From NCBI GenBank assembly GCA_017479385.1, contig JAFVCE010000017.1, positions 62,001 through 126,000 of the forward strand: a stretch of DNA of 64,000 bases, read 5' to 3'. Positions 1,887 through 60,205 of this stretch are shown here, piece by piece; position 1 is the stretch's first letter, and every line of letters starts with the position of its first letter. The position numbers and the translations under genes are program-made. Under the pieces are notes generated by a model that saw nothing but the letters and a program-made list of their open reading frames with translations, ran no database searches and was not told the DNA's origin. The stretch comes from Bacteroidales bacterium. Its GTDB lineage: Bacteria > Bacteroidota > Bacteroidia > Bacteroidales > P3.

Positions 1887-1995
1887 GTAACTGTCTGAAT
1901 ATCAAGCGTTGTTCGACCTCAATACGACCTTAACCCCTCTTTAATACGACCTTAACCCTGAAAATCAACAACTTGCGAAGCTGAAATTGGACTAA
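1887..1995 (+). repeat. Dispersed 11-bp-unit repeat, copy A (core array 1914-1957)
   Basis: Core units of 11 bases run back to back: CGACCTCAATA (1914), CGACCTTAACC (1925), CCTCTTTAATA (1936) and CGACCTTAACC (1947). The core is preceded by a conserved left flank (AACTGtcTGAATATCAAgcgTTGTT) and followed by a partly conserved right flank (CTGAAAATCA...CTT). The same arrangement recurs near 40.06, 52.30 and 60.13 kb. It lies in the 644-base spacer between the convergent genes serS and the lipoprotein at 2290. The rest of that spacer holds a run of 12 C (2012-2023) and two hairpins listed separately; I see no gene in it. Confidence 0.85.
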
Positions 1996-2038
1996 AAAAT
2001 CAAAATTTTCGCCCCCCCCCCCCGAACTGATGAAAAAT

Positions 2039-2062
2039 CGCCTCGGCCGGTGTGCCGAGGCG
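2039..2062 (-). terminator. Rho-independent terminator for the minus-strand lipoprotein genes
   Basis: A perfect 9-base-pair GC-rich stem (CGCCTCGGC / GCCGAGGCG) closes a 6-base loop. Read on the minus strand the stem is followed by ATTTTT, the normal U-tract, so it would end transcripts coming from the lipoprotein pair at 4392-2290. On the plus strand no T-run follows. Confidence 0.6.
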
Positions 2063-2136
2063 AAATAAACATGGAGGCGGGTGGGGGAGTGGGACCTAAA
2101 GAGGTGCAGGCCTGTTTCGATTTAGCACCGTGGTCG

Positions 2137-2157
2137 TTGCGCGCCTTCGGCGCGCAA
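2137..2157. other. Perfect hairpin with UUCG-type loop
   Basis: TTGCGCGC, then C(TTCG)G, then CGCGCAA gives a 9-base-pair perfect stem around a three-base loop, equivalent to a stem closed by the very stable C-UUCG-G tetraloop. Neither strand has a T-run after it. A second imperfect GC-rich inverted repeat with a similar arm follows near 2189-2210. The role is unknown; it could be a second stop or processing signal for the minus-strand transcript. Confidence 0.45.
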
Positions 2158-2289
2158 GTTATATCCCAATTTTGTTGCCTCAGTTATGCTGTGTGCTGGC
2201 GCTTTTGGCGCGCATGATTCGTTTCATGTGGCACGTGCAGAGGCAGTATGGCTTGATTGTTTGTGCGGTTCGGCAGGGCTTTTTGTAGG

Positions 2290-2763
2290 TTATTTGCTAC
2301 TGCTTGCGCGTACCGCGTTGTCGTAGTCGGCTGTTGTTATTTCGTACCACATTGTAGAATAACCCATGTCGGTTTCGGTTGTCCATGATTTTGCATCTAA
2401 TACATTATGCTCAGCAGGTATAAATATCAAAGAGTCATTGTCGTCATAATAATAGTAATGTTTTATCGAGTATGTACTATCGAAAGTAAATTGTACGGAA
2501 TCGACCCATTTGTATGGTGAACTGTGTCTGTCTATATTATTGAGTAGCATATAAAGACCGTCTGGCAATGGGTCAACAGTATTTGTCCCGTTACTATTCG
2601 ATTTTTCAATTGTAACCTGATGCTCGGAAGTATTATCAATTAACCAAACTGCGATTGATGCGATGGGTTCAACTTCCACTGACCCACAAGCGACAACCGT
2701 AAATGCAAGAGTAGCGGCGAGCAAAATGTTTGTAAAAAGACGTGTGTTTTTCATGATTATCAT
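2290..2763 (-). CDS. Small lipoprotein of unknown function
   Basis: A 157-residue protein with a type II signal peptide: positive start, hydrophobic stretch LLAATLAFTV and lipobox VVAC at about residues 23-26, so it is predicted to be lipid-anchored. The mature part has no motif I recognise. The start could be M1 or M4 (MKNTRLF); the second gives a more typical signal peptide. It begins six bases after the stop of the larger lipoprotein upstream, so the two are co-transcribed. Both genes are visibly richer in A and T than their neighbours, which suggests an accessory cassette. Confidence 0.6.
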   Translation of the reverse strand: MIIMKNTRLFTNILLAATLAFTVVACGSVEVEPIASIAVWLIDNTSEHQVTIEKSNSNGTNTVDPLPDGLYMLLNNIDRHSSPYKWVDSVQFTFDSTYSIKHYYYYDDNDSLIFIPAEHNVLDAKSWTTETDMGYSTMWYEITTADYDNAVRASSSK

Positions 2764-2769
2764 TGTTTA

Positions 2770-4392
2770 TTAGTATCCAAAACCAGAATAATATCCAACC
2801 ATAGTTGATACATCAGACGTAGTTGTTCCATTCAATAAGTATGTATTAAGGGCATTTTGTAGAGTAGACAAATCGCGTGCAGAATATATAAGGTTGTCTT
2901 GAATTTGCTTTAGAGTATAATTGGATATATTATCATTTGGCAATTCATTGTAGTAGCTATGTTGGTTGTATGTATCCATCAAGTCAACGAATATCGCTGT
3001 ATAGGGGGTACATTCATCGCCTTGTTTTGTTCCAGGAATCAAATACTGATAGTGTCTTATATGACCATCATGCTCTGATAAGGTTACACCTTGTGAAGCG
3101 TAATAACTTCTTATCATAGCCCAGGCGATACATACAGCCCAACTTTCTTTTATGAATTTATTAGTTTGTACGAATTTATTCTTTCCTACAAAATTCAAGT
3201 GTGAGCGGTGTCCTAATTCGTGGAATGCAGTTTGAATAATTTGATGTGGTTTTCGTGGATGAAAGGTTGAATCAAGCCCCCATATTTTTATAATTTCTTT
3301 AGTAAAAATTGTTGAGCTACTGGTATGTATACCCCTATATGAAGGGTCGTAACCGTGAATATAACCAATTTTCATTTTAAAAGTTACAGTAGGCTTCTCT
3401 ATGTTTCCAAAATTTCCATAGTATGTTGTTATAAGCGCTCTGTGAATGAGTGCGAACATATTGTCTATGGTGCTTTCCTGCATATTGAGCGTCCAAGACG
3501 AATTGGATTTAGGGCCAGTTGTATAGGCTTGGTTCTTGTCATAGCGTATCTTCCAGTATTTTCTATCCCATTTTATTGAGTATTCTACCTTGTCGCGGAA
3601 TTTTTTTGAGGACTGGCATTGCCCAGCAGAGTTTGTAATGGCATCGCTAACTTTTGTGCCTTTCTTAAATACGACCCGAACTCCCCCAAGTGGAATATCT
3701 GAAGTCGAAGCAAGTTGGTCCTGGTATGTAATGGTCGCACTTGGTGTCCATTTTTGTGTTGACGCTTTTGTATCCACAGGTTTTTCTGAGTAGGTTCCAT
3801 TTTGGCTCGCCGCAATATCGCATGATGTTGCTTCTAACAAGTCGTAGAAATCTTTTATATCATTGTAGTCTGGAGCGTCTTCTGGTATGAATACATCATA
3901 AAGCACTTCGTAGAATATACTGTCGGCAAACTGGTAGTTGAGGGGTACTACTCCATAGAGCCAAGTAATAGAGTCTGTAGGTGTATTGGGGTCTTGATAG
4001 TAATAGCCTGCATTAACAACTTCACAATCTAAAGGGTAGTCAAACCAAAGTTGGTTTGTGTCGCTCTCTATATAGTCAAGTTGGTATTCGCTACTTGGCA
4101 ACACCCTTACGTACATTCCAGTTGGTGAAAGAGTCATGCCGGCTGGTCTGCTGGATAGGTTCAAAAAAATGCTATACATATTTTCGAACCTATACGGATC
4201 GTAGTTTGATTTCAACAGAGCCATCATATCTCCCGAAGTCGTTTTGGTTGCGACTTGGTGTCTCTGTTTTTGTGACGTTGGAAGCAAATCCTCGTCGTTT
4301 CTGCTGCAGGAATATGTTAGCATTACACTAAATATTCCCACAGCAGCACAGAGGATTAAACCGTTACGGTGTTTGTTTGTAGTAGTTTTCAT
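2770..4392 (-). CDS. Lipoprotein with HExxH zinc-protease motif
   Basis: A 540-residue product with a lipoprotein signal peptide (lipobox LTYSC near residue 29). The middle part (about 220-300: TITYQDQ...PLGGVRVVFK...TNSAGQ) looks like a transthyretin/carboxypeptidase-regulatory beta domain. The C-terminal part has HELGH at residues 391-395, followed by ESWA with E416, the layout of a gluzincin-type zinc site (two His plus a downstream Glu). I recall a similar architecture (regulatory-like beta domain plus HELxH) in uncharacterised Bacteroidetes lipoproteins. Substrate and true protease activity are unknown. Codon use is AT-rich compared with the surrounding genes. Confidence 0.65.
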   Translation of the reverse strand: MKTTTNKHRNGLILCAAVGIFSVMLTYSCSRNDEDLLPTSQKQRHQVATKTTSGDMMALLKSNYDPYRFENMYSIFLNLSSRPAGMTLSPTGMYVRVLPSSEYQLDYIESDTNQLWFDYPLDCEVVNAGYYYQDPNTPTDSITWLYGVVPLNYQFADSIFYEVLYDVFIPEDAPDYNDIKDFYDLLEATSCDIAASQNGTYSEKPVDTKASTQKWTPSATITYQDQLASTSDIPLGGVRVVFKKGTKVSDAITNSAGQCQSSKKFRDKVEYSIKWDRKYWKIRYDKNQAYTTGPKSNSSWTLNMQESTIDNMFALIHRALITTYYGNFGNIEKPTVTFKMKIGYIHGYDPSYRGIHTSSSTIFTKEIIKIWGLDSTFHPRKPHQIIQTAFHELGHRSHLNFVGKNKFVQTNKFIKESWAVCIAWAMIRSYYASQGVTLSEHDGHIRHYQYLIPGTKQGDECTPYTAIFVDLMDTYNQHSYYNELPNDNISNYTLKQIQDNLIYSARDLSTLQNALNTYLLNGTTTSDVSTMVGYYSGFGY

Positions 4393-4456
4393 TGTTTCAA
4401 ATATTTGTGGTATAAAATTGAATTTTGTAAATATGAGTCGCTTTAGTATTATTAAA

Positions 4457-5173
4457 TTAGAGGTGGAAACCTATGCGGAGCATGAGGGAGCCGACGGTGC
4501 GGGTTTGGCGGTTGCCAGGGGTAGTATAGTAAGCTTGCGTAGCAGGGTGGTTTTTGGCAGACTTGGCAGTCATATCGACGGTGTGTTGGCCCATGATGTA
4601 GTAGTGAATACCAGCCGAGACGTGGCGGCCAAAGTAAGCGCCGATACCAACTTCACCAGCAATGTTAAACGAAGGTTTGTAGGAGTAGTAGTTACTGGAG
4701 TTGTTTTTGTCTCCCTCGTTGGTCATGAATAATGCGTCGGCACCAATACCGGCTTCGCCGAAGAATGTGATGTCGCTAACAATCTGGTCGTTGAGGTAGC
4801 TCACGCCAACAAAGATGGGGACGTTGAAGTAGCTGGTCTTTTTGTAGTTGTATTGGGTGTAGTTGTCGCTGGTGTTTTTGCTCACAGTGTTCCACAGCAG
4901 GTCTATGTTGGCAAATGGGGCCACTTCGCCAGCTCCGACATCGAAGAGGTATTGAGCGCGATAGCCAGCGCCAAAACCTATCGAGGCATCCTTACCCATA
5001 TTTTTGGGGGTTAGGGGAACGGGGGTGTTGCTGGCCAGGCTGGTTGCCCACGAGCCCATTGGCAGGTTGCCGTTGAGGAAAATGGATTGACGGAGTTGAG
5101 CTTGGGCGGTGTTTGCGGTCAGCATAAACATTGCTGCAATGCACAAAGTGCTGAAAATGTGGATGTTTTTCAT
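4457..5173 (-). CDS. Outer-membrane beta-barrel protein
   Basis: A 238-residue protein with a clear type I signal peptide ending at AQAQ (about residue 26). The mature part alternates aromatic and small residues in short strands (FGAGYRAQYLFDVG, GEVGIGAYFGRHVSAGIHYY) and ends with LMLRIGFHL, the terminal-aromatic strand typical of small outer-membrane barrels. The specific function is unknown. A consensus Bacteroidetes promoter lies just upstream, so it may have its own transcript. Confidence 0.7.
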   Translation of the reverse strand: MKNIHIFSTLCIAAMFMLTANTAQAQLRQSIFLNGNLPMGSWATSLASNTPVPLTPKNMGKDASIGFGAGYRAQYLFDVGAGEVAPFANIDLLWNTVSKNTSDNYTQYNYKKTSYFNVPIFVGVSYLNDQIVSDITFFGEAGIGADALFMTNEGDKNNSSNYYSYKPSFNIAGEVGIGAYFGRHVSAGIHYYIMGQHTVDMTAKSAKNHPATQAYYTTPGNRQTRTVGSLMLRIGFHL

Positions 5174-5197
5174 GTTTTTCTGTATTTAATTTATCAG

Positions 5198-5228
5198 CAA
5201 AATTAATAAAAAAATATTATATGGCAAA
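5198..5228 (-). promoter_or_regulatory. Bacteroidetes-type promoter for the barrel protein at 5173
   Basis: On the minus strand TTTG (5228-5225), 19 bases, then TAATTTTG (5205-5198). This matches the Bacteroidetes -33/-7 consensus TTTG-N19-TAnnTTTG. Transcription would start about 20 bases before the ATG at 5173. Confidence 0.65.
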
Positions 5229-5341
5229 ATTTTTTTGCCTCGAAGTGCTTTTTTGTTATAAATTGTGTTTGTGTGTGTTGCCAGTGTGGTTGGTATGGGG
5301 CCTAAGGCCATTGTGTGCTGAGAGGAGGGGCAACTTTTGTT

Positions 5342-6823
5342 CTATTTGGCTTTTTTTAGCACAATGCGGAAGGTGGAGCCCTGCCCCGGCACCGAGTATT
5401 TGAGGTAGATAGAGCCTCGGTGGTAGTCGTTGATAATGCGCCGAGCGAGCGACAGGCCGAGTCCCCAGCCACGCTGCTTGGTGGTGAAGCCCGATTGGAA
5501 TATTTTTTTCTGTATCGAGGTTGGAATGCCTTTGCCTGTGTCGCTGATGTCGATATAGATGTGGCGGGCGTCTTGCGAGATTATTGTGCTAATGGTGCCC
5601 GAGCCGTTCATGGCGTCGATGGCGTTTTTGCACAGGTTTTCTATCACCCACTCGAATAGGTAGCTGTTTATGGGCGCTATGAACTGTTCGCCTTCGGGGA
5701 ACGAAGTGACGAACTTGACTTTGCGCGAGCTGCGATTTTGGAGGTAGGCTATGGCACTTTGCAGCACCTCGCCAACGTTTTCTTCTTTCAGTTCTGGCAC
5801 AGAGCCTATTTTCGAAAAGCGGCGCGTGATGGTGTCGAGGCGGTTAAGGTCTTTGCGAACCTCGTCGGCATACTGCGGCTCGAAAGTGCGCCCCTGCAGG
5901 TATTCGGTCCATGCCATAAGCGACGAGATGGGGGTGCCGAGCTGGTGGGCTGTCTCTTTGGCCATACCGACCCAAATGCGGTTTTGCTCGGCTGTTCGTG
6001 CGGTGCGGAAGAGGTTGTATGATATTATTACCAGAACGATAGCAATGATGAGGTAGAACAGCGGAGCGAGCTGTACAGAGCGCAACAGTGGTGTGTCTTC
6101 GTAGTAGACGTAGGCTGGCAGGTTGTTTGGCAGCAATATGCGTATGGGTTGGTTGAGGGCGCGCATATGGTTGAGTCGGGCAGCGAGCTTTTCGGGCGTG
6201 TTGACGCTGGCTGTGTCTATGTTTCCCATACCGATAATGGTTTGGCGGCGGCCGTCGACAATAATAACTGGCACGAACACAGAGTTGTTTGTAATTTCGG
6301 TAAGGAGCGACTCTCCCAGTTGGTCGAGGGTGTGGCGCAGGGTGCCGTATATGGCCGACTCTTTATAATAGAGCGTCATCGGCATACCCCAAATCGTGTA
6401 GTGGAATGGTGGGTTGGCCGAAAATTCGGAGAGCAGGCTGTCGGTTAGTTTTTGGCCGCTTAGTTCTTGCGGCACGGTGATGATGGAGTCGTTGCCGACA
6501 ATGAGAATTTCGGTGCGGCTGCTGTCGATAATATAGTTGACGTAGGCCAGGCTAAACTCTAAGTCGCTGTTGAGGTTAGGACTGTTGAACGACTCCAGTA
6601 TGTTGGTGTACATAGCCATCTTGCGACGCTCGTCGACTGCCACTTGGTTAAAAAAATGTTCGGTAGTGCTAACCAGTTGCGCTTTTTGGCTTATGGCGGC
6701 TGCCCAAAGGCGGATTTTGGCCGTTTCGGAGTCGCGTATTTGCGACGCAATGCGGTTGGTTTGCCACAAAGCGGCAAATGCTAAAACAATGGTGACGGCG
6801 AGTATAATCCACTTCTTGTTCAT
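5342..6823 (-). CDS. Sensor histidine kinase
   Basis: A 493-residue two-component kinase. Membrane segments at about 5-20 and 250-270 bracket a roughly 230-residue extracytoplasmic sensor region with no domain I recognise. The cytoplasmic part has the H-box (AHQLGTP, phospho-acceptor H293), the N-box (ENLCKNAIDAM, about 395-405), the G1 box DTGKG (428-432) and G2 GLGLSLA (about 454-460). No response regulator is encoded next to it in the window, so its partner must be elsewhere. It sits 15 bases after the LolC/E-like permease gene and is probably co-transcribed with it. Confidence 0.88.
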   Translation of the reverse strand: MNKKWIILAVTIVLAFAALWQTNRIASQIRDSETAKIRLWAAAISQKAQLVSTTEHFFNQVAVDERRKMAMYTNILESFNSPNLNSDLEFSLAYVNYIIDSSRTEILIVGNDSIITVPQELSGQKLTDSLLSEFSANPPFHYTIWGMPMTLYYKESAIYGTLRHTLDQLGESLLTEITNNSVFVPVIIVDGRRQTIIGMGNIDTASVNTPEKLAARLNHMRALNQPIRILLPNNLPAYVYYEDTPLLRSVQLAPLFYLIIAIVLVIISYNLFRTARTAEQNRIWVGMAKETAHQLGTPISSLMAWTEYLQGRTFEPQYADEVRKDLNRLDTITRRFSKIGSVPELKEENVGEVLQSAIAYLQNRSSRKVKFVTSFPEGEQFIAPINSYLFEWVIENLCKNAIDAMNGSGTISTIISQDARHIYIDISDTGKGIPTSIQKKIFQSGFTTKQRGWGLGLSLARRIINDYHRGSIYLKYSVPGQGSTFRIVLKKAK

Positions 6824-6838
6824 AGGCTTTGGGGAGGG

Positions 6839-8062
6839 TTAGTTCTCTACACGTATGCTCCGAGCAGGCTCAATGCGCGCAATAAACGATGTTGGCAGCA
6901 GCAAAGCGAGTAGGCATACGGCCAGTGTGCCGAGGGTGATGACTATGAATATCATGGGGTTGAGGTCGATAGGTACGGCCGACATAGAGTATATCTCGCT
7001 GTCGAGCTTTATAAGGTGGAACGATTTTTGCAACCAGCATAATATCAGTGCAATGGCGTTGCCAATGAGTAGTCCTCGACCGATGATAGAGGCCGATTTG
7101 AGCATGAAAATTCGTCGTATGGAGCTGTTGGTTGCCCCAAGCGTTTTGAGCACGCCTATAGTGGCCGTTTTTTCGAAAATCATAATGAGGAGCGACGACA
7201 CAATGGCCACCGCGCACACCAGCGCCATGAGCAGAATGATGAGCACGATGTTTGAATTGAGCAAGTCGAGCCACGAGAAGAGGGCCGGGTTGAGGTCAAC
7301 AATGGTTTGTTGCGTGAGGTCATAGTCGAGGCAGGTAAGCACCTGTGGCGCAATGCGACTAACCGAGGCAAAATCGTCGAGCAAAATCTCGTAGCCTTCA
7401 ACTTGGTCGGGTTGCCAGCCGTTTAGTCGTTGGACTTGACGCAGGTCGCCCACAATGTAGTGGTCGTCGAAATCTGTAAGGTCTGTGCTGTATATTCCCA
7501 CAACGGTCAGTGCGCGAGCACGATAGGTTGTTCCTTGCCAAAAGTAGGTGCGCACCTTGTCGCCCAGACCAAAGTTCATTTTTGCAGCCAAAGTCTGCGA
7601 CACTATTATCTCGTTGCTTGCAGTGCTATCGTCCAGCCTGAAGAGCCGTCCGGAAACGAGGTTCGAGGCAAAAAACGATGAGTCGAAGTTGCTGTCTACA
7701 CCTTTATAGATTATGCCGTGAATGTGGTTGTCGGTTTTCACCATGCCACCTTTGTTGGCAAAAAACTGGAGGTGCTTCACTCCTGGTATAAGTCGAATGT
7801 TCTCGACCTCGGTTCGGGCTGTAGATATGGGGGTGGATTCGTATGAGCCTTGAGCCCCGTAGCTGTGGACAACTATATGCGAACCAAAGCCTGCCACCTT
7901 GTTGGCTATCTCGTTTTGGAACCCTCGCAGTATGGTGACGGCCATGAGCATCACCAGCACTCCGAGGGCGATGCTCCCAGAGGCAATTCCTGCCAAATTA
8001 GACGAGAAGCGGGTCGCGTCCTTTGGCAGGAATTTTTTGGCTATGAACGATTCGAATTTCAA
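6839..8062 (-). CDS. ABC transporter permease, LolC/LolE-FtsX family
   Basis: A 407-residue permease with the lipoprotein-releasing (LolC/E) layout: an N-terminal transmembrane helix (about 28-50), a large periplasmic domain (about 50-265), then three helices in the FtsX domain (LLMALVCAVAIVSSLLIMIFEKT; the TIGVLKTLGATN loop; a C-terminal helix pair). It would work with a LolD ATPase to move lipoproteins out of the inner membrane. LolD is not in the window, as is common in Bacteroidetes where lolC/E and lolD are unlinked. It starts four bases after the tpiA stop. Confidence 0.85.
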   Translation of the reverse strand: MKFESFIAKKFLPKDATRFSSNLAGIASGSIALGVLVMLMAVTILRGFQNEIANKVAGFGSHIVVHSYGAQGSYESTPISTARTEVENIRLIPGVKHLQFFANKGGMVKTDNHIHGIIYKGVDSNFDSSFFASNLVSGRLFRLDDSTASNEIIVSQTLAAKMNFGLGDKVRTYFWQGTTYRARALTVVGIYSTDLTDFDDHYIVGDLRQVQRLNGWQPDQVEGYEILLDDFASVSRIAPQVLTCLDYDLTQQTIVDLNPALFSWLDLLNSNIVLIILLMALVCAVAIVSSLLIMIFEKTATIGVLKTLGATNSSIRRIFMLKSASIIGRGLLIGNAIALILCWLQKSFHLIKLDSEIYSMSAVPIDLNPMIFIVITLGTLAVCLLALLLPTSFIARIEPARSIRVEN

Positions 8063-8066
8063 TGTT

Positions 8067-8831: not shown

Positions 8832-8853
8832 GGTGGTATGGGTTTTAGGGTGG

Positions 8854-10323: not shown

Positions 10324-10365
10324 ATCAGTATAACTTGTTTTTGCGATTTTTATTGTGTTGCGAGG

Positions 10366-15822: not shown

Positions 15823-17199
15823 TTATTTTATTTGGTCTTTCACAGCCATGGTGTCGGCTATGAGAAAAATGCTTCCGGTGATGAGTACCAAGTCGTCGGC
15901 CGAAGCTTCGGCAAGGGCTGCTTTGATGGCAGAAAGCACGTCGGTGTATTGCTCGCCTTGCAGGCCCGAGGCTGTGGCAGTTGCAGCCAACTGCTCGACG
16001 GGCATTCGGCGCGGTACCGACGGCTGGGTGAAGTAGTACTTGGCTTGGCGTGGCATGAGGCTGAGTATGGAGCTTAAATCCTTGTCGACCACGCAGCCAT
16101 AAACAATATGTAACTTGTTATAGACAAGTGTTGTGAGCTTTTCAAGCATCGACCTCACGCCGGGTTCGTTGTGGGCAGTTTCGCACACGGTGAGCGGTTG
16201 GGTGGCAATAACCTCCCAACGCCCGTGGAGGCCAGTGTTATTGACCACGCCAGCAATGCCGCGACGAATGTGGTCTGGCTCGAGGTGGAACCGTCCCTGG
16301 TGGTTGATTGCTTCGAGTGCGGCAAAGAGAGTGGCAAAGTTGTGCAGTTGGTAGGCTCCGGCCAGGGGGGTGGCGAGGTCGGTCATGAGTGGTTCGTTGT
16401 TGCGAAAAATATCGACCTTTTCTCGACCTTGATACGACCTTAACCCGACCTTAACCCGACCTTGACCCGACTTTGAGTCGACCTCAATACGACCTTGACC
16501 CGACTCTGTGACGAACCGTGCACGGTAGTGGTCGTCGGCAAAAACGATGGGGCTACCGAGCCGCTGGGCCGTGGCTTGGAATACAGGGCGAGTTTCGGGG
16601 TGGCTTTCGCCAATCACTACGGGGGTGCCAGGTTTGATTATGCCGGCCTTTTCGGTGGCGATTTGGGGCAATGTGGTGCCGAGAAACTGGGTGTGGTCGA
16701 AGCCAATGTTGGTTATGACCGAGAGCTCGGGGCTGATGACGTTGGTAGAGTCGAGCCGACCGCCCATGCCTACCTCTATTATGGCAATATCGACTTTCTG
16801 CGCAAAGTAGTCGAATGCCATACCTACCATCATTTCGAAGAACGAGAGTTGCAGTTGTTGAAACGTGTCGTGGTGGCGCTCAACAAAGTTGACCACGGCC
16901 TGTTGCGGTATCATTTGGCCGTTGATGCGGATTCGTTCGCGCATATCGACCAGGTGGGGCGAGGTGTATAAGCCCACGTTGTAGCCTGCCTCTTGAAATA
17001 TTGAGGCGAGCAGGTGGCTTACCGAACCTTTGCCATTGGTGCCGGCCACGTGGATGGAGCGGAATTGACGTTCGGGATGGCTGAGGTGCTCCATGAGTTG
17101 CACTGTCGAGGCAATGTCGGCCTTGTAGGCGGCAGCCCCGATGCGGTGATACATGGGTAGTGAGTTGTATAGGTAGTCTATTGTTTGTTGGTAGTCCAT
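15823..17199 (-). CDS. folC: Folylpolyglutamate / dihydrofolate synthase with an in-frame repeat insertion
   Basis: A 458-residue Mur-ligase-family enzyme that adds glutamate to dihydropteroate or folates. Visible motifs: the P-loop [12 protein letters not shown], the [12 protein letters not shown] metal/substrate loop, [11 protein letters not shown], and TAHNEPG in the C-terminal domain. Residues about 230-262 are an insert made of three 11-residue repeats ([33 protein letters not shown]). These are the translation of nine 11-base DNA units on the opposite strand (16413-16511). The insert lies between the N-terminal ATPase core and the next conserved stretch LAGAYQLHN. Without it the length (about 425) would be normal. 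Confidence 0.93.
16413..16511 (+). repeat. Nine-unit 11-bp tandem array inside folC
   Basis: Nine consecutive 11-base units, each beginning CGAC: 16413, 16424, 16435, 16446, 16457, 16468, 16479, 16490 and 16501. Units CGACCTTAACC (twice), CGACCTTGACC (twice), CGACCTTGATA and CGACCTCAATA are the same or one base different from units in the extragenic arrays. The total of 99 bases is divisible by three, so folC stays in frame on the other strand and the array is translated as three 11-residue repeats. The array reads on the plus strand, like every other copy in the window. Confidence 0.92.
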
Positions 17200-22161: not shown

Positions 22162-22205
22162 CGATGTTAGGGCGATGTTAATACGACCTTAATACGACCC
22201 TAACC
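22162..22205 (+). repeat. Dispersed 11-bp-unit repeat, copy E
   Basis: Four 11-base units: CGATGTTAGGG (22162), CGATGTTAATA (22173), CGACCTTAATA (22184) and CGACCCTAACC (22195). The first two are diverged. The conserved left flank seen in copies A-D is not recognisable here. This is the only extragenic copy not at a convergent junction: it lies between the end of mltG and the promoter of the TPR gene. The 222-base spacer otherwise holds only that promoter. Confidence 0.7.
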
Positions 22206-39845: not shown

Positions 39846-39875
39846 GAACCAGTTACTTCTAACATACATCTGTGC

Positions 39876-39902
39876 TCTCGGCCTCGCAAGGGGCTGCCGA
39901 GA
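39876..39902. terminator. Hairpin after ispG
   Basis: TCTCGGC (39876-39882) pairs with GCCGAGA (39896-39902) across a 13-base loop, 31 bases after the ispG stop. No T-run follows, so it may be a weak or factor-dependent stop. Confidence 0.35.
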
Positions 39903-40033
39903 ACAATAGAATGAGGCGGCACAATGAGTGGTTCTACACGCAGGTGGCACCGCGGAGCGATAGGGCAAGCATTAGGGAATTATGCCGTAATGGAGCGGTT
40001 TGTATCGATAAACGGCCGTTGCGAGGGCTATTC

Positions 40034-40140
40034 GTAATTGCTTCAAAATCAAGGCTTGTTCGACCTCAATACGACCTTAACCCGACCTTAATACGACCGA
40101 AGGCCTGTTTTTCAGCCTGTTACAAAGGCCCAAAAGTACG
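40034..40140 (+). repeat. Dispersed 11-bp-unit repeat, copy B (core array 40061-40104)
   Basis: Units CGACCTCAATA (40061), CGACCTTAACC (40072), CGACCTTAATA (40083) and a diverged CGACCGAAGGC (40094), preceded by the shared left flank (TAATTGCTTCAAAATCAAGGCTTGTT) and followed by the right flank (CTGTTTTTCAGCC...AAGGCCC). It lies in the 377-base spacer between the convergent ispG and amidohydrolase genes. The rest of that spacer contains two hairpins (39876-39902 and 40125-40154) and no gene. Confidence 0.85.
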
Positions 40141-40154
40141 CATTTTTGGGCCTT
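40125..40154. terminator. Bidirectional terminator-like hairpin
   Basis: AAGGCCCAAAA (40125-40135) and TTTTGGGCCTT (40144-40154) form a perfect 11-base-pair stem around an 8-base loop. It is symmetric, so it can fold on both strands between two convergent genes. T residues lie inside the arm rather than after it. Confidence 0.45.
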
Positions 40155-40222
40155 GGGAGGGGGTGGGTTTATCGATATTGGGAGATTGATTGGCGTTTGC
40201 AGCAGGGTGGGGTAGCGGCCTT

Positions 40223-50522: not shown

Positions 50523-50538
50523 AAAAAGTTAAATGGTG

Positions 50539-50568: not shown

Positions 50569-50624
50569 CACATATAACCACAATTCGGAATGCTCCACAA
50601 CAGGTTGAAAATGAGTTTATAACA

Positions 50625-52124: not shown

Positions 52125-52225
52125 CCACACAACTGGCGATACTGCCATCAACCACCACCCACAGACCATCAAAAACCGCTTAATGCTCGCCCAATAGCAG
52201 GGCAAAAGATAAGCCAACATTGCCT

Positions 52226-52247
52226 CCTCCTCGCTCGAGCGAGGAGG
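52226..52247. terminator. Perfect 22-bp GC-rich palindrome
   Basis: CCTCCTCGCTC followed directly by its exact inverse complement gives an 11-base-pair perfect inverted repeat centred on TCGA. It lies 102 bases after the stop of the gene at 52124, inside a convergent spacer. No T-run follows on either strand, so termination is only one possible role; a protein-binding site is another. Confidence 0.4.
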
Positions 52248-52269
52248 TAAAGTAGGATAGTTTACGCTT

Positions 52270-52375
52270 GCTAACTGCTTGATTTACAAGTGCTATTCGA
52301 CCTCAATACGACCTTAACCCCTCTTTAATAGGTCTTCAATACTGAATGACAGGTAGTTACAGAAGCCGAAACTAT
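52270..52375 (+). repeat. Dispersed 11-bp-unit repeat, copy C (core array 52298-52341)
   Basis: Units CGACCTCAATA (52298), CGACCTTAACC (52309), CCTCTTTAATA (52320) and GGTCTTCAATA (52331). Left flank TAACTGCTTGATTTACAAGTGC and right flank CTGAATGACAGGTAGTTACAGAAGCCGAAAC correspond to those of copies A, B and D. It lies in the 432-base spacer between the convergent genes ending at 52124 and 52557. Apart from the palindrome at 52226 and a run of T after 52379, I see nothing else in that spacer. Confidence 0.85.
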
Positions 52376-52556
52376 CTGTTTTTTTTTTCGTTTTTTTAAG
52401 AATTGGGAAGGGTTGTGCCACTCGGCCCTGGTGGTGGCGATAGTCTGTTGGTTGAGGGTTGGGTTTTGAAGGTTAAGGTCACACTCCCCTAATATGAAGC
52501 ACGCGATGTTGCTCAGTTTTGGTTAAACAGCTTTGTGTACGGTTGTTCACGTCGCA

Positions 52557-53318: not shown

Positions 53319-53323
53319 CGGGG

Positions 53324-54253
53324 TCAGAGTTTTATGTGGTTAGCAATTGCAATGGCGGCCATGGCTTCGACAACTACGGGCAGTCGGTGTACGTGGCAGC
53401 GGTCGTGACGTCCGCCGAGGGCGAGATATTCTATCGTGCCGTCGCTCGATATGCACTGTGTGGCTTCGGGTATAGTTGCAACTGGGTGAAAATGAACGGT
53501 AAACGTTATTTCGTTGCCATTCGAAATGCCGCCTTGTATACCGCCGCAATGGTTAGTTTCGGTAACGAATGGTGCCACCCATTTGTCGACAAATTGGCTG
53601 CCGTTCATGTCAGACGCGGCTGTTCCACAACCAATTTCGAAGGCTGTTGCCGACGGAATGCTCATGGCTGCGGCGGCCAGCTCGGAGTCGAGCCCGCCAA
53701 AAATCGGGTCGCCCACACCGGCCTTTATTCCCCTAATGTGGCAGACCACAGCGCCACCTCGGGTGTCGCCATCGCGCTCGGGGGCGAGTTTTAAGACTTC
53801 GGCGCCGACGCTAACCCCGACTGTGGCCAGCACCTGCTTGGCAATGTTGCCGGCAACCACGCGAGTGGCAGTTTCGCGCCCCGAGGCCCGTCCGCCACCA
53901 CGGTGGTCGCGTGTGCCGTAGCGGGCCTGATAGGTGTAGTCAGCGTGGCCAGCGCGGAATCGGTCTTTTAGCAACTCGTAGTCGGCCGAGCGGCAGTCGC
54001 CATTGCGCAGAAAGAAGGCTATTGGCGTGCCGAGGGTAAGGCCACCTTTTAGGCCAGAGACGAACTCCACTTCGTCGGTCTCGTGCCGTTGAGTTGTGTC
54101 GGCGCGGTTGCCACGACGCCGCTTTAAGTCGGTCGAGATGGCTTCAAAATCTATCTCAATGTTGGCAGGACACCCATCCACAATGCCACCAACGGCGAGC
54201 CCGTGGGACTCGCCGAATGATGTGAAGCGGAAATTATGCCCTATCGTATTCAT
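53324..54253 (-). CDS. aroC: Chorismate synthase, internally shortened
   Basis: A 309-residue enzyme for the last step of the shikimate pathway (EPSP to chorismate, FMN-dependent). Conserved parts are present: [14 protein letters not shown] with H17, [57 protein letters not shown] with H103, [12 protein letters not shown] and the [18 protein letters not shown] tail. Against the usual 355-365 residues about 37 are missing near residue 157, where VGAEVLKLA runs directly into [12 protein letters not shown]. This drops the segment around the conserved CPDP. The C-terminus is also short. The overlap with the FKBP stop is four bases. Confidence 0.93.
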
Positions 54254-55062
54254 TTCGAGGGATTTATTTCGAGCAATTCGACTTCGAAAACAAGTGTCGA
54301 GCCGCCAGGTATTGCGCCTTGTGGGCGTGTGCCGTAGCCCAAGTTGTAGGGAATGTAGAGTTTGTAGGTCGAACCCTCGTCCATGAGCTGTAGGCCTTCG
54401 GTCCAGCCTGGAATTACTTGGTTGAGGCCAAAAACGGCGGGTTCGCCGCGGTCTACGCTGCTGTCGAACTTGGTGCCATCGATTAGGGTGCCGGTATAGT
54501 GCACCTTGACGCGGTCGGTGGCTTTGGGGCGTTTGCCGTTGCCGGCCTTAATGCGCTGATATTTCAGACCGCTCTCGGTGGTGTAGACCGATTTGTTGTT
54601 CGAGATGCGCTTCATGTAAGCCTCGCCGTCGGCAATGTTTTGTTCGATGCCAGCGTTCTGTTTGCGCTCAAATTCCATTTGGAAGCGCTGCAAGAGCGGC
54701 CTTGCAGTGGCGTCGGTCATAAAGTTTCGGTTGTGGGCAAGGTCGAGCAGCGACTGGGCCACAGCTTCGAGGTTGATGCCGAGTTTTTGCGACTGCCAGT
54801 TTTGGGCAATGTCGCGGCCAATAGCGTAGGAGGCCGAGTCGTTGAATTTGGTAATTGGCACTCCGGCTTCGGCTTTGGCCAGCTTCTGCTTGGTTTGTTG
54901 CAGGTCGGTCTTGGTCTTGTCGTAGGCTTCGGCTTTGGCTTTCAGTTCGTTATACTGGGCTTCGGTCATGGTGACTTTGCCGCGTTTGATTTTCACGTCT
55001 TGTGAAAATGCTGCCTGCGAACAAAGCAGTGCGCAGGCAGCTATGATGATTATCCTTTTCAT
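54250..55062 (-). CDS. FKBP-type peptidyl-prolyl isomerase
   Basis: A 270-residue periplasmic foldase with a signal peptide ([15 protein letters not shown]). A charged coiled coil (about 33-70) and an FkpA-like helical dimerisation domain ([30 protein letters not shown]) precede the FKBP domain at about 160-266: [43 protein letters not shown], then IPYNLGYG and [13 protein letters not shown]. It follows butyrate kinase by two bases and overlaps aroC, so it is co-transcribed with both. Confidence 0.92.
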
Positions 55063-55064
55063 TA

Positions 55065-56156
55065 TTATCTATATTCTTTGGCGGGTACTCCGTCGAGGAC
55101 TTCTTTACCACAGATGGCAAGAGCGAGCATTTCGTTTTCGCCTTTATATATTTTGACGGGGGCAATCCAGTCTACTCGTTCGGCAATCTGAGCCATCCAG
55201 GGTTTGCTGTAAGCAATGCCACCGGTGAGGAGGATGGCGTCGACAGCGCCGCAAACCACGGCAGCCAAGCGGCTGATTTCCATCGAAACCTGGTAGCAGA
55301 ATGCGTCGACAAGAAGTTTGCATTTTTCGTCGCCAGCGAGGGCGCGTTTCTCAACTTCGTAGGCGTCGTTGGTGCCGAGGTAGGCCACGAAGCCACCTTC
55401 GGCGGTGACCATCTTTTTGAGTTGAGCTTCGGTGTATTTGCCACTGCAGGCCACTTCGATGAGTTTGCTGGCATTGATGCTGCCGCAGCGGGTGGGAGAG
55501 AAGGCTCCGAGGCCGCAGAGGGCACGGTTCACTTCGACCACGCGGCCGTGGTTGTGGATACCCACGCTCACGCCGCCACCCATGTGGGCGATGATGAGGT
55601 TGAGGTCTTCGTAGTGTTTACCCAACTCGCGAGCATAGAGTTTTGCGGTCATTTTCTGGTTCAGGCAGTGCCAAATGGGGCCTTCGACGCGTTCGTCGAG
55701 GTCGAAAACTGGGTGACCACTGATTTTAGCAAATTCGGGGCGCTCGTCGACGATGCCTGGGTCGGCAATGTAGGCGCATTCGAGGCCGATTTCGCGAGCG
55801 ATAGAATCGCTGATAAGGGCACCGAGGTTGCAGGCGTGTTTGCCTTGAATACCGTCGTGGCATTCTTGTTTCATCAGTTCGTTGACGCGATAGCAGCCGC
55901 TTTCGCAGGGGCGGGTGAGGCCGCCGCGGCCCATAACGATGGCAATGCTGTCGGTGCTTATTTCGTGGCGCTTCAGCATATCGAGGATGGCGCCTTTGCG
56001 ATAGTCAAACTGGTCGGCAACCTCTTTATATTTCTGAATTTCTTCGATAGGGTGGGAGAGGTTTTCGGTGAAAACTTCGGTCTCGCCCTCATAAACTGCT
56101 GCTTTTGTTGACGTTGCACCAGGGTTGATTACCAGTGTATACTTTTTGTTGCTCAT
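55065..56156 (-). CDS. buk: Butyrate kinase
   Basis: A 363-residue acetokinase-family enzyme converting butyryl phosphate and ADP to butyrate and ATP (the family also uses branched acyl phosphates). Visible: [18 protein letters not shown], the [18 protein letters not shown] region, [50 protein letters not shown], and the C-terminal GGIAYSKPW. The usual partner phosphate butyryltransferase (ptb) is not upstream; a DUF58 gene is there instead, separated by an AT-rich promoter region. Confidence 0.95.
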
Positions 56157-56201
56157 GTTTGTATGGTTGCTTTTAATTCTTTTTTATTTATTTCGATTTT
56201 G

Positions 56202-56209
56202 CAAAGTTA
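56202..56209 (-). promoter_or_regulatory. -7 element of the butyrate kinase operon promoter
   Basis: TAACTTTG on the minus strand (56209-56202) is an exact TAnnTTTG match about 45 bases before the buk ATG. I did not find TTTG at the 19-base distance. The 117-base spacer is AT-rich and holds nothing else. Confidence 0.5.
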
Positions 56210-56273
56210 CGATTTTTTTTTTGATTTTTAGCATTTTTAACAAAAAAGATGAAATATTTTTTGTTTCATAGCG

Positions 56274-57203
56274 TTATGATTGACGTTGGCGCTTGAGCAG
56301 GAAGGGTAGCAAAATCTGGTTAAAACTGTTGCCAATATCGACTGGCTGATAGTCTATGTTGTATTGTATGGCGCGCTGTTTCAGCTCGTTTTGTTGCCTA
56401 AGCATCTCGGTGCGGTAGGTTTCGGCAACCTCGGCGGGTTGCACCTTGAGTCGGCGGCCGCTCTCGAGGTCGACAAAGAGGTGGGGCCGGTTGTCGAACT
56501 GGAAGTCGATTTCGAGCCTGTTGTCGAATGTGTGGAAAAAGAGTACCTCGTGCTTGCAATGGCGCAGGTGGCGTAGGGCGTCGAAGAGTTCGTCGCGGTC
56601 GTGGTCAGAGCCGACAAAGGCGTCGGTGAATATAACCACCATCGAGCGCCGGTGGAGTTGCTCGGCAGTGAGGTGGAGTGTTTCGGCCACCGAGGCAGTT
56701 GCCTTGTGTTGAGCCGTAGCATCGACTGGAGCCATGAGCGGTTCGAGCAGCGAGTAGAGGTACAGCTGGTGGGTGCGGTTGCTTCGGGCCGGAGTGCTGA
56801 GGTCGATGTGGTCGCTGAAAAGAGTAAGCCCAAAAGCGTCGCGTTGGCGCAGCAGGAGTTCGGTTAGTGCTGCAGCGGCATAGACGCTGAAAGTGAGCTT
56901 ATTGGGGCGTTCCAAGTTGCCTTGCCCCTCGACCGGAAAGAGCATCGAGCCGCTTTGGTCAATCAGGAGTTGGCAGCGCAGGTTGGTCTCCTCCTCAAAG
57001 GTCTTGACAAAAAGCTTGTCGGTCCGACCAAAGAGCTTCCAGTCGATGTTGCGCGTCGACTCGCCACTGTTGTACTGGCGGTGTTCGGAAAATTCTACCG
57101 AGAAACCGTGGAACGGGCTTTTGTGAAGACCAGTAATAAATCCCTCGACGACCTGCCGTGCAAAGAAGTCGAGAGATTTATAGCGTTCAAGTTCTTCAAA
57201 CAT
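56274..57203 (-). CDS. DUF58 protein with von Willebrand A-like domain
   Basis: A 309-residue cytoplasmic protein of the family encoded with MoxR ATPases and Bat proteins. The N-terminal DUF58 signature reads GFSVEFSEHRQYNSGESTRNIDWKLFGRTDKLFVKTFEEETNL. The MIDAS metal site LLIDQSGSM (DxSxS) follows, and VVIFTDAFVGSDHDRDELF supplies the later vWA loop. MoxR/BatA-type genes are not in the window. It is 13 bases downstream of trxA and probably co-transcribed with it. Confidence 0.85.
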   Translation of the reverse strand: MFEELERYKSLDFFARQVVEGFITGLHKSPFHGFSVEFSEHRQYNSGESTRNIDWKLFGRTDKLFVKTFEEETNLRCQLLIDQSGSMLFPVEGQGNLERPNKLTFSVYAAAALTELLLRQRDAFGLTLFSDHIDLSTPARSNRTHQLYLYSLLEPLMAPVDATAQHKATASVAETLHLTAEQLHRRSMVVIFTDAFVGSDHDRDELFDALRHLRHCKHEVLFFHTFDNRLEIDFQFDNRPHLFVDLESGRRLKVQPAEVAETYRTEMLRQQNELKQRAIQYNIDYQPVDIGNSFNQILLPFLLKRQRQS

Positions 57204-57216
57204 TCAGGTTTGAGGC

Positions 57217-57531
57217 TTACAACAGGGTGTTGAGTTTGTCGGTCAGAGTGGATTTGGCAACGAGTCCGACGCTTTTGTCGACGGCTTCGCCGTTTTTGAA
57301 GAAGAGTATGGTTGGGACGTTGCGTATGCGGAAGCGGGCTGCGAGGTCGCTGCATTCGTCGACGTCGGCGGTTCCAACCACTACGCGGCCTTCATATTCG
57401 CGAGCCACTTCTTCGACCACCGGGGCCAGAGCTTTGCAGGGGCCGCACCAGGTGGCGCCAAAATCTATCATTGCGGGTTTGCCAGAAGCGATGAGTTCAT
57501 CGAAATTTTTTTCTGTAACTATCTGTGCCAT
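57217..57531 (-). CDS. trxA: Thioredoxin
   Basis: A 104-residue redox protein with active site ATWCGPCKALAP, buried aspartate in MIDFGATW, cis-proline loop VPTILFFKNGE and a normal C-terminal helix. The open frame extends to 57663, but the start at 57531 (MAQIVTEKNFDEL) fits the family and lies correctly downstream of a consensus promoter. It reduces cytoplasmic disulfides. It is followed 13 bases later by the DUF58 gene. Confidence 0.95.
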   Translation of the reverse strand: MAQIVTEKNFDELIASGKPAMIDFGATWCGPCKALAPVVEEVAREYEGRVVVGTADVDECSDLAARFRIRNVPTILFFKNGEAVDKSVGLVAKSTLTDKLNTLL

Positions 57532-57569
57532 AATTATTTTTGTTGTTGTTTCGGTTGTTGATTGTTTTA

Positions 57570-57599
57570 CAAAGATAGTGTTATTTTTGGTTTTACAAA
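57570..57599 (-). promoter_or_regulatory. Promoter of trxA
   Basis: On the minus strand TTTG (57599-57596), 18 bases, TATCTTTG (57577-57570), a near-perfect Bacteroidetes promoter. It supports the downstream start at 57531, since the longer frame would begin upstream of the promoter. Confidence 0.72.
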
Positions 57600-57748
57600 G
57601 CGGTGTGTCGAAAGTTTTTTTTGACAAGGGTTGTGAATATTTACCTAATAGCCACATTGTCAACCTGTTGAAGTGTGATTTTTTTTCGAAAATAAATTTT
57701 TTTTCATATATATATAATTAATTCTTTTTTTTTGCGTTATTATAGTGT

Positions 57749-58984
57749 ATGCAGATGCGACGATTGAAGATATTACTGTTGGTGGCGGTGCTTGCGGTGG
57801 CGGCACCGGCAAGGGCTCAAGACGAGGTTGAAGCTCTTGTAAATCAGTATACTGAGGCTTACGACAGCCTGATGAATAGTTTCTACATGCGCCGTTATGC
57901 CCAGACCCACTCTCACCGTAACCGCACTATCGGCGCCGCTGAGTTCGACCAGGTGCCCGACTCGGTGATTGCGGCTCGCCTCGCCTCGCTCCACACCGTA
58001 ATTCCGATGACATATAACAGCGAGGTTCGCGCCTATATAAGGATGTACCTTAACCGAATGTCGACCCGCCTCGACGTTATGCAGACTTTGTGCGAATATT
58101 ACCACCCCATGTTCGAGGAGGTGCTGAGCCGCTACGATGTGCCCGAAGAGCTGAAGTATCTGCCCATAGTCGAGTCGGCCATGAACCCCAAGGCCACCTC
58201 GCGCGTTGGCGCCGCTGGCCTTTGGCAGTTTATGTACACCACCGGCAAAAATTACGACTTGGAGGTGAATTCGATTGTCGACGACCGCCGCGACCCCTAC
58301 AAGTCGACCGTGGCGGCAGCCCATTTTTTGAGCGACTTACACACTGTGTTCAACGACTGGACGCTCGCCATCGCGGCCTATAATTGTGGCCCTGGCAACA
58401 TCAACAAGGCCATTGCCCGCTCGGGCGGCAAACGCGATTTTTGGGAGATATACTATTATCTGCCGCGCGAAACGAGGGGCTACATTCCGGCTTTTATTGC
58501 TGCCACCTATGTGATGAACTTCTATACCGACCACGGGTTGCGTTGCACAAACACCTCGTTGCCAGTGCGTTCCGACACCATCATGGTGCGCCATGACCTG
58601 CTTTTCCACTATGTTTCGAAAGTCACCGGAATAGAGATGGATGAGTTGCGCACCCTTAACCCGCAGTATCGCGCCGACTTTATACCCGCCTCGTCGGGCA
58701 ATTACTCGCTTTGCCTGCCGGTGAGCAAAATCAAAGACTTCATCATGGTCGAAGATACGCTCTACGCCCAGACGCGCGACTCCGTAAGTCGCCGCCCGGT
58801 GCGCATGGCCAAGCCTCAGGCACAGACCTCCTCGTCGGGCGGAACGGTCTACTACACTGTCCGTAGCGGCGACACCCTCTCAAAGATTGCTTCCAAATAT
58901 GGCATAAGTGTGGCCACGCTCAAGAAGCGCAACGGCCTCTCGTCTGACCGCATTCGCGTGGGTCAACGCCTCAAAATAAGATAA
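57749..58984 (+). CDS. Lytic transglycosylase with LysM domain (MltD-like)
   Basis: A 411-residue secreted peptidoglycan-cleaving enzyme (signal peptide LLLVAVLAVAAPARAQ). The SLT domain at about 125-270 shows the catalytic glutamate in LPIVESAMNPKATSRVGAAG with LWQFM, then DDRRDPYKSTVAAAHFL and AIAAYNCGPGNINKAI. A LysM domain closes the protein (YYTVRSGDTLSKIASKYGISVATLKKRN). It is the first of three plus-strand envelope genes. No consensus -7 box was seen in the AT-rich leader. Confidence 0.93.
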   Translation: MQMRRLKILLLVAVLAVAAPARAQDEVEALVNQYTEAYDSLMNSFYMRRYAQTHSHRNRTIGAAEFDQVPDSVIAARLASLHTVIPMTYNSEVRAYIRMYLNRMSTRLDVMQTLCEYYHPMFEEVLSRYDVPEELKYLPIVESAMNPKATSRVGAAGLWQFMYTTGKNYDLEVNSIVDDRRDPYKSTVAAAHFLSDLHTVFNDWTLAIAAYNCGPGNINKAIARSGGKRDFWEIYYYLPRETRGYIPAFIAATYVMNFYTDHGLRCTNTSLPVRSDTIMVRHDLLFHYVSKVTGIEMDELRTLNPQYRADFIPASSGNYSLCLPVSKIKDFIMVEDTLYAQTRDSVSRRPVRMAKPQAQTSSSGGTVYYTVRSGDTLSKIASKYGISVATLKKRNGLSSDRIRVGQRLKIR

Positions 58985-59024
58985 CAACCCCGAACATCCA
59001 TTTGCAGAAAAACAACATCGATAT

Positions 59025-59330
59025 ATGAAACAACGAATACTGAAATCGCTCAAATTTCTTGGCAACAAATATGTCATAGCAACCATCATCTTCTTGCTGC
59101 TGATACTTTTCCTCGACGACTATAATCTGATGGATACTCGCCGCCTGCGCCGCCAGGTTAAGGAACTACGTGCCGAGGAGCGCGAACTGCGCAACGATAT
59201 GGTTGAAGACAGCGTCAGAGCGGCCTCGTTGCGTGGCAACCTCGACGCCATTGAGCGCTACGGCCGCGAAAATTATTATATGAAACGTTCCGACGAGGAC
59301 ATCTACGTCATTAAAGACCGCAAAAAATGA
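59025..59330 (+). CDS. Septum-formation protein, FtsB/DivIC family
   Basis: A 101-residue bitopic membrane protein: a short cytoplasmic start, a membrane helix (YVIATIIFLLLILFL, about 16-30), then a coiled coil (RRLRRQVKELRAEERELRNDMV) and a conserved end (NLDAIERYGRENYYMKRSDEDIYVI) typical of the family. It would form part of the division complex with FtsL and FtsQ. It follows the transglycosylase by 40 bases and overlaps the NlpC/P60 gene by four. Confidence 0.88.
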   Translation: MKQRILKSLKFLGNKYVIATIIFLLLILFLDDYNLMDTRRLRRQVKELRAEERELRNDMVEDSVRAASLRGNLDAIERYGRENYYMKRSDEDIYVIKDRKK

Positions 59331-59938
59331 AACGCATTGCTTTCCCTCTCATAGTAGCTGCCACGCTCCTCTTGTCCAGTTGCGAGGCCATACGCAACTT
59401 CCTGTCGCACGACCTGGAGGAAGAAGATTTCATCATAGGCAAGCTCTACGAGGACGAGTATGTGGCCGAAACGCCCGTCATCTCGCGCCCCGTGCAGCGC
59501 CAACAGGCTGCCACCGCCAAGCCAACCACCAATCCACTCGGGCTCGACTATAGTGCCACCGACAACCAGAAACTCTACGACGCCATCAACTCGTGGCTCG
59601 GTGTGCCCTACAAGTATGGTGGCACAACACGCGACGGCATTGACTGCTCTGCCTTCGTTGGCCATATATATAAAGAGGTGTATGGCCTCACCCTCAACCG
59701 CACCGCCAACGATATGCAGCAGGATGTCCGCCTCATAGACCGCACCCAGTTGCGCGAGGGCGACCTGCTCTTCTTTATCAATAGTAAGGGTAAGGTCTCG
59801 CACGTGGGTATCTATCTAAAAGACAGCCTCTTTGCCCACGCCTCGACCTCGAACGGGGTATGCCTCAGCCGCCTAACCGATACCTACTGGACCACGCACT
59901 TCTACCGCGGCGGTCGCCACAAGAAATTCGCCAACTGA
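59327..59938 (+). CDS. NlpC/P60 (C40) peptidase lipoprotein
   Basis: A 203-residue lipoprotein (lipobox LLSSC near residue 19) with a C40 cysteine peptidase domain: WLGVPYKYGGTTRDGIDCSAFVGHIYKEVYG with the catalytic cysteine, LREGDLLFFI, and the catalytic histidine in KVSHVGIYLKDSLFAHASTSNGV. Such enzymes cut stem peptides of peptidoglycan. It is translationally coupled to the FtsB/DivIC-like gene. Confidence 0.93.
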   Translation: MKRIAFPLIVAATLLLSSCEAIRNFLSHDLEEEDFIIGKLYEDEYVAETPVISRPVQRQQAATAKPTTNPLGLDYSATDNQKLYDAINSWLGVPYKYGGTTRDGIDCSAFVGHIYKEVYGLTLNRTANDMQQDVRLIDRTQLREGDLLFFINSKGKVSHVGIYLKDSLFAHASTSNGVCLSRLTDTYWTTHFYRGGRHKKFAN

Positions 59939-59963
59939 CGGCTCGGCCTGCGGCCTCGCCGTC
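59937..59963. terminator. Hairpin overlapping the NlpC/P60 stop codon
   Basis: GACGGC / GCCGTC outer stem and GGCC / GGCC inner stem, with a symmetric TC/TC internal loop and a TGC loop. The outer stem begins inside the TGA stop. No T-run follows. It is a possible terminator or mRNA-end stabiliser. Confidence 0.35.
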
Positions 59964-60098
59964 CCCTCTCCACCACACGGCCACGAGAAGACAACCCCAA
60001 CACCCATACAAACTTCCCAGCAGAGTCGGCCCAACACCTAAAAAACATCCACAAAACAATCGCCAACCATCGGGTTGGGGAGGGTAAAAATGCGCTAC

Positions 60099-60205
60099 CT
60101 AACTGCTTGAATATCAATGCTTGTTCGACCTCAATACGACCCTAACCCCTCCTTAACACGACCTTAACCCTGTAAATCAGCCACTTATAGAGCCCGAATT
60201 TAGCC
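60099..60205 (+). repeat. Dispersed 11-bp-unit repeat, copy D (core array 60126-60169)
   Basis: Units CGACCTCAATA (60126), CGACCCTAACC (60137), CCTCCTTAACA (60148) and CGACCTTAACC (60159). The left flank TAACTGCTTGAATATCAATGC is nearly identical to copy A, and the right flank CTGTAAATCAGCCACTTATAGAGCCCGAA is shared in outline. It lies in the 348-base spacer between the convergent NlpC/P60 and DUF799-like genes. The remainder of the spacer is C-rich after the hairpin at 59937 and then holds the terminator at 60220-60251. Confidence 0.87.

Follow-up and report, generated by a model that had tools for sequence, protein, structure and literature searches.

The window, as we call the whole stretch of DNA analysed here, is 64,000 nucleotides long and corresponds to positions 62001-126000 of contig C5 of the genome under study (G000; 2,277,571 bases in 24 contigs). 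An earlier note on this DNA had described a dispersed repeat with one array at each of the four convergent gene junctions, and we could confirm these four arrays, whose cores begin at 1914, 40061, 52298 and 60126, all on the plus strand and all within elements of one family, here termed family I. Element A (1888..1975) lies in the convergent spacer 1646-2289; its left arm starts at 1888, units 1-2 occupy 1914-1935 and units 3-4 occupy 1936-1957, and the right arm extends to 1975. Element B (40035..40122, core 40061-40082) lies in the spacer 39846-40222 between a GcpE/IspG gene on the left and an amidohydrolase gene on the right, element C (52272..52359, core 52298-52319) in the spacer 52125-52556 and element D (60100..60187, core 60126-60147) in the spacer 59939-60286. 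Genes were called with our own hexamer-based caller rather than taken from a standard annotation, and some tandem spacers may therefore conceal small genes. For the window this independent caller yielded the layout already described, with four convergent spacers and three divergent spacers free of arrays.

The single extragenic copy that had been placed elsewhere, at 22162-22205, is also real. It is a short form without left arm (22173..22205, plus strand, CGATGTTAATA-CGACCTTAATA-CGACCCTAACC, core 22184-22205) which lies in a tandem spacer and is oriented opposite to the flanking genes. The claim of a shared core holds for the four arrays at their coordinates, but it has to be qualified, as unit 2 of element D reads CGACCCTAACC and as a further array of about eight eleven-base units, without arms but with units of the same family, is found at 16413..16505 (plus strand) inside a Mur-ligase-family open reading frame (15823-17199, minus strand), which we take to be FolC-like. 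This array is located between two Pfam domains. It keeps the reading frame open and can be read as a low-complexity insert with SGQGR-type repeats at the boundary of the middle and the C-terminal domain. Altogether the pattern CGACCTYAAYM, with at most one mismatch, matches 46 times in the window, compared with 6.0 expected matches and a maximum of 12 in 100 shuffles. Among the other features of the window are ten 33-bp tandem repeats with 94% matches (61112-61455), where reading frames are open on both strands, and the RNase P RNA (62239-62617), which was the sole match in an Rfam scan; the repeat elements had no match at gathering score. The best 80 IspG relatives came mostly from uncultured Bacteroidales or Bacteroidetes, many of them ruminant-derived, and the gene order around ispG varies among the relatives (19 loci).

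The elements measure about 90-150 bp, occur in both orientations and consist of imperfect inverted arms (GTAAsTGnyTGAnnnTCArG) enclosing four 11-bp units. Our family I set comprises 49 copies, initially found via the core, of which 33 are located in convergent and 13 in tandem spacers and 3 not between called genes. In this family the left arm TAAsTGnyTsAwTATCAAG is followed by TTGTT, unit 1 (CGACCTCAATA), unit 2 (CGACCYTAACC), unit 3 (CCTCYTTAAYM), a looser unit 4 and the right arm CTGnnTTTCAGGnAGTTA, and the outer parts are looser still. We dropped the idea that the right arm is an IHF-like site (WATCARNNNNTTR); the motif fits some of the right arms and not the left ones. The arm profile matches the elements on the opposite strand as 7 weaker hits, so that terminal inverted repeats of the kind that defines MITEs are present, and 6 of the 47 arm matches in 775 kb lie away from arrays.

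The earlier note had proposed to compare convergent spacers with divergent and tandem ones, and we carried out this comparison on contigs C5, C1 and C14, i.e., on 775 kb of the 2.28 Mb genome. Element clusters were defined by the 22-base core with at most three mismatches. Of the resulting 80 clusters 69 fall between called genes; among the 11 unplaced clusters 3 are at contig ends and 2 (C1 60748 and C1 80627) resemble very short tandem spacers on inspection, and one of the 80 (C1:89) was left out of the flank table, the contig end being too close. The link to convergent junctions has strong support: when spacers of at least 100 bp are considered, an element is present in 46/50 convergent, 3/52 divergent and 19/129 tandem spacers (convergent versus the rest, p = 7e-27). 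Outside the window the respective counts are 42/46, 3/49 and 18/119, and over all spacer lengths they are 46/62, 3/64 and 20/511. Spacers longer than 200 bp are occupied in 39/40 convergent, 3/31 divergent and 17/62 tandem cases, spacers of 100-200 bp in 7/10, 0/21 and 2/67. The 16 element-free convergent spacers are either shorter than 100 bp (12, some of them overlapping) or measure 104-207 bp (4). With length-weighted random placement only 12 of the 69 elements are expected between convergent genes, with a maximum of 24 in 5000 draws, while 46 were observed.

Two elements in one spacer were never found in the 775 kb. Randomizing the 46 elements among the convergent spacers gave 11.3 doubles with length weights (minimum 5) and 10.5 with equal weights (minimum 4) in 5000 draws. 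The 46 convergent copies consist of 33 family I copies and 13 copies with other flanks, which have nothing but the array in common with family I and exclude family I copies from their spacers. Regarding orientation, the convergent copies are split 23:23; in tandem spacers 16 copies oppose the direction of transcription and 4 follow it (p = 0.012), and when one copy is excluded that actually has a tRNA gene on one side and a gene facing it on the other the ratio is 15:4 (p = 0.019). We do not claim a replication polarity (orientation versus GC skew, p = 0.11; versus gene strand, p = 0.08); a runs test of orientation gave z values of -3.1 for C5, -0.3 for C1 and +1.6 for C14. In the same 775 kb the sequence TATCGATAA occurs 25 times, 15 times in convergent spacers, 9 times within genes and once in a tandem spacer, with several copies adjoining a T-run, and it is perhaps a second motif of convergent junctions.

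A host DNA-binding protein sitting on the 11-bp array could turn the element into an insulator, an RNA-polymerase roadblock or a topoisomerase or supercoil-handling site between converging transcription units. Such a co-opted boundary role is possible but unproven, and we consider it the main rival to a mobile repeat, albeit one that we rather doubt. It would account for the occupation of 46 of the 50 convergent spacers that reach 100 bp, none of them doubly, for the interchange of different flank types, and for the 'tandem' copy that in fact separates the tRNA gene from the gene facing it. The conservation of the 49 family I copies is in line with this role, too. The mean major-base frequency falls from 0.99 in unit 1 and 0.96 in unit 2 (0.97 on average for both) to 0.86 in unit 3 and 0.68 in unit 4; the left arm reaches 0.82, the right arm 0.68 and the sequence outside 0.45-0.55, so that units 1-2 and about ten positions of the left arm are nearly invariant while the flanks drift. 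Moreover, invariant positions alternate with free neighbours, which would be expected of a bound site and not of uniform decay. A core-masked profile trained on these same 49 copies recovered all of them, each with a core of at most two mismatches, and revealed no arm-only copy. On the other hand the element is missing from all 24 congeners, which argues against a general need, and in eight orthologous pairs of the sister species G042 and G020, which carry an unrelated 11-bp family described below, the core is not conserved beyond its surroundings. In addition, an enrichment between convergent genes is common in parasitic repeats, according to the excerpted text of PMC3049150.

The elements could also act on the RNA level as bidirectional terminators, the transcribed element being folded or bound by a termination factor. 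Runs of at least five T cluster near -38 and +85 relative to the core, and a T-tract hairpin begins at -41 to -39 in 7 of the 33 convergent junctions of family I. The C-rich strand of the array with its C pairs every 11 nt is reminiscent of a rut site, which we count in favor of this explanation. Folding z-scores below -2 were obtained with a short piece for 9/49 copies in sense and 6/49 in antisense direction and with a long piece for 11/49 and 14/49; the mean z-score over the 49 copies, however, is merely -0.6 to -1.2, a weak excess. Covariation was absent from the arms (z -0.9 for the left arm, 1.3 for the right arm and -0.5 from arm to arm), apart from one of six slid registers with a z of 2.25. 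At position -17 both G (0.69) and C (0.31) occur, yet its pairing partner -11 is C in 0.98, and hence there is no conserved palindromic stem as in REP/BIME elements. Using our own detector we found hairpin terminators at the 33 convergent family I junctions in sense direction at 15, in antisense direction at 13, in both at 6 and in neither at 11, and a hairpin followed by a U-tract, as in an intrinsic terminator, is thus not seen at every junction. Furthermore most copies in tandem spacers have the opposite orientation, and the core of the G042 element is not C-rich. We therefore regard an RNA terminator as very unlikely.

Terminators could instead be the target. In this special form of the mobile repeat explanation, which overlaps with it and does not compete for the same probability, the tract between two facing terminators would offer one target per junction, which is consumed by the first insertion. 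This would explain why a junction has a single copy, why orientation is split 23:23 between convergent genes and why a T/A run adjoins the left end, and one copy in G042 (L228) is indeed flanked by a T6 tract on one side and an A6 tract on the other. The run at the left end, however, is perhaps part of the element itself, a G being present at -43 in 76% of the copies. On the right side we found no A-run at a constant distance, and tandem spacers, in which terminators are to be expected as well, are rarely occupied (19/129). On these grounds we think that targeting of terminators is unlikely.

The repeat is abundant in its genome. With at most two mismatches the 22-base core has 120 + 119 = 239 matches in G000, a number exceeding that of the elements since some of them match more than once, and the reversed control had none. 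The same search in 40 relatives, namely the 24 congeners and 16 genomes of the order, gave no match. Exact searches with a 24-mer against genome contigs and with a 22-mer against viral contigs, both of which may omit the genome itself, gave no hit, and one element compared with phages had no match. PF01797 (Y1/RAYT transposase), the sole transposase family sought, has no match in G000 and was detected in 5 of 14 control genomes. In the open-access literature we found no paper on this repeat. DNA-uptake sequences are oligomers of about 10-12 bp with many copies both within and between genes; this identity was rejected, because 69 of the 80 clusters in the 775 kb are intergenic.

Arrays of this periodicity are not confined to G000. 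Among intergenic tandem arrays a period of 11, 22 or 33 was found for 57/87 in G000, for 84/245 in 12 congeners and for 2/21 in 9 outgroup genomes of the order, the latter counted without the 1.3 kb stretch of G039 (congeners versus outgroup, p = 0.026). The leading period is 7 bp in the congeners G002 and G007, and G046 and G017 have zero or one array of period 11. In G002 (L178-L184) the 7-bp intergenic arrays, e.g., of ATGAGTG, are dense, and 82 of 108 intergenic arrays of all periods lie in tandem spacers. Judged by their sequences, the 11-bp families of several congeners are unrelated to the repeat of G000. In G044 the unit TGTTCTTCGAT stands opposite its complement, with 806 pattern matches, several per element; in the 59 genomes searched the pattern has 31 further matches in G001, 16 in G012 and at most 5 in five others. 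The G044 element (L190-L194, L216-L217) is a facing pair with about four 11-bp units per direction. In 139 kb of this genome 6 of 8 elements are located in tandem spacers.

The sister species G042 and G020 share a family with three 11-bp units and the unit GTAACGATGCT, which matches 72 and 65 times in these two and once or twice in three others of the 59 genomes. Our sample consisted of 20 listed copies with an exact core, of which 13 are convergent, 5 tandem against and 1 tandem with transcription, none divergent and 1 at a contig end; as it contains six orthologous pairs, 9 of 14 loci are convergent. In an unbiased 119 kb of G042 we found 4 clusters: two in convergent spacers, of which the stretch has 6 measuring 100 bp or more, one divergent and one tandem. 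For three further G042 copies we inspected the orthologous site in G020; two sites were occupied and one (L246, corresponding to the G042 copy L229) was empty. The extra segment in G042 measures about 418 bp and is bounded by inverted ends reading TTAA(A)CCCAAATCGGTCATTAGG apart from one or two differences, and the site shows an overlap of 5 bp. The simpler reading of this difference would be an insertion, although a precise loss is possible. Beside the empty site about 990 bp are present in G020 and missing from G042. Ends of the CCCAAATCGGTCATTAGG type (at most 4/18 mismatches, within 700 bp) occur on at least one side of 17 of the 20 copies at varying distance. In the eight orthologous pairs the element outside the core is 93-99% and the 33-base core 91-100% identical, 22 of the 33 core bases in G042 being exact by choice; other spacer DNA is 84-98% and third codon positions are 79-94% identical. 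That the core is no better conserved than the rest of the element counts against a general function of the core in these species.

The families of the genus could also be combined with the boundary role. Species of the genus would then possess, or once have possessed, 11-bp recognition codes of their own; MITE-like carriers would renew such a code through their turnover, and a DNA-binding protein would read it and co-evolve with it. There would be one boundary element per junction of convergent transcription, and in G000 the element would have reached most convergent junctions. To us this extended form seems rather unlikely.

The best explanation, to which we assign an even chance of being right, is that the repeat belongs to the small interspersed repeats of the MITE/REP-like type, is non-autonomous and species-specific, and shows a one-copy-per-junction behavior, any host benefit being secondary and unproven. 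Its copies would spread through a transposase, would be lost from promoter-bearing spacers and would be retained between facing 3' ends; the 11-bp array would be the putative binding site of a sequence-specific protein required for the spread, and occupation or immunity may exclude a second copy. A lineage-specific expansion, with 239 core matches in G000 and none in 40 relatives, argues for the mobile repeat, as do the imperfect inverted arms with their 7 opposite-strand profile hits and the insert-like array between the two Pfam domains. The sister species point the same way with their convergent lean, the presence/absence site and the CCCAAATCGGTCATTAGG-type ends on at least one side of 17 out of 20 copies. 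The avoidance of divergent spacers (3/52) is in line with the convergent bias reported for BOX, RUP and SPRITE in the excerpts of PMC3049150 and for REPs in those of PMC3733652. Several findings are at odds with the mobile repeat. Random insertion does not yield one copy per junction, the central array and not the ends is most conserved, unlike in ordinary MITE decay, and family I copies and copies with other flanks are mutually exclusive although only the array is similar. In addition, just 2 of 6 convergent spacers are occupied in the unbiased stretch of G042, 6 of 8 elements are tandem in G044, and the presence/absence site is explicable by precise loss. The earlier note had left the choice between a role where transcripts meet and an element that survives only there. 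The latter fits best, given the MITE-like element of the sister species with its similar lean and one presence/absence site; termination, a form of the former, finds little support in view of the missing arm covariation, the weak folding, the 11 of 33 junctions without hairpin and the 16:4 orientation against transcription.

A co-opted repeat would amount to a bacterial version of insulators or roadblock terminators, present at most converging gene pairs and having a species-specific recognition code. If it is selfish, the repeat would be a natural example, and an extreme one, of how insertion choice together with purging and the exclusion of copies can shape a distribution. Either way, the old question of what makes REP-like repeats accumulate at convergent 3' ends becomes testable in a nearly saturated genome.

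Several known repeats are comparable. BOX, RUP and SPRITE of Streptococcus pneumoniae are, in the excerpted text of PMC3049150, small interspersed repeats enriched between convergent genes and judged parasitic by the authors; 16/86, 23/88 and 15/30 of the tabulated copies are convergent, and with 149 repeat-free convergent intergenic sites in the list that genome is far from saturated. In G000 46 of the 69 intergenic copies are convergent, and the excerpts mention no 11-bp array for the pneumococcal repeats. REP/BIME elements, as portrayed in the excerpts of PMC3733652 and PMC1525189, are often species-specific and biased to 3' ends and convergent spacers, those of Escherichia coli being reported to bind gyrase and IHF; they carry a GTAG tag to which the GTAA of the G000 arm is similar. 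Unlike these elements, the G000 repeat lacks stem covariation and has an array of 11-bp direct repeats in its center, and our PF01797 search showed no Y1 transposase in the genome. BrickBuilt, a Bacteroidales MITE from Porphyromonas gingivalis, has an interior of tandem direct repeats and is always intergenic according to the excerpts of PMC4596501, which give 19 copies, a 23-nt unit repeated 1 to 22.8 times and mixed contexts, compared with 239 core matches, an 11-bp unit, short arrays and a convergent bias in G000. The TAACTGA heptamers (PMC4679880, in excerpt) are intergenic short tandem repeats found also in some Bacteroidetes; in the genome examined there most of them closely precede start codons. 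They differ in period, and no arms are mentioned in that excerpt; 7-bp arrays dominate the congeners G002 and G007. As far as the excerpts of PMC3049150 and PMC3733652 go, convergent enrichment of parasitic repeats is already published, and it is in its near saturation, its single copy per junction and its invariant 11-bp array that the repeat of G000 differs.
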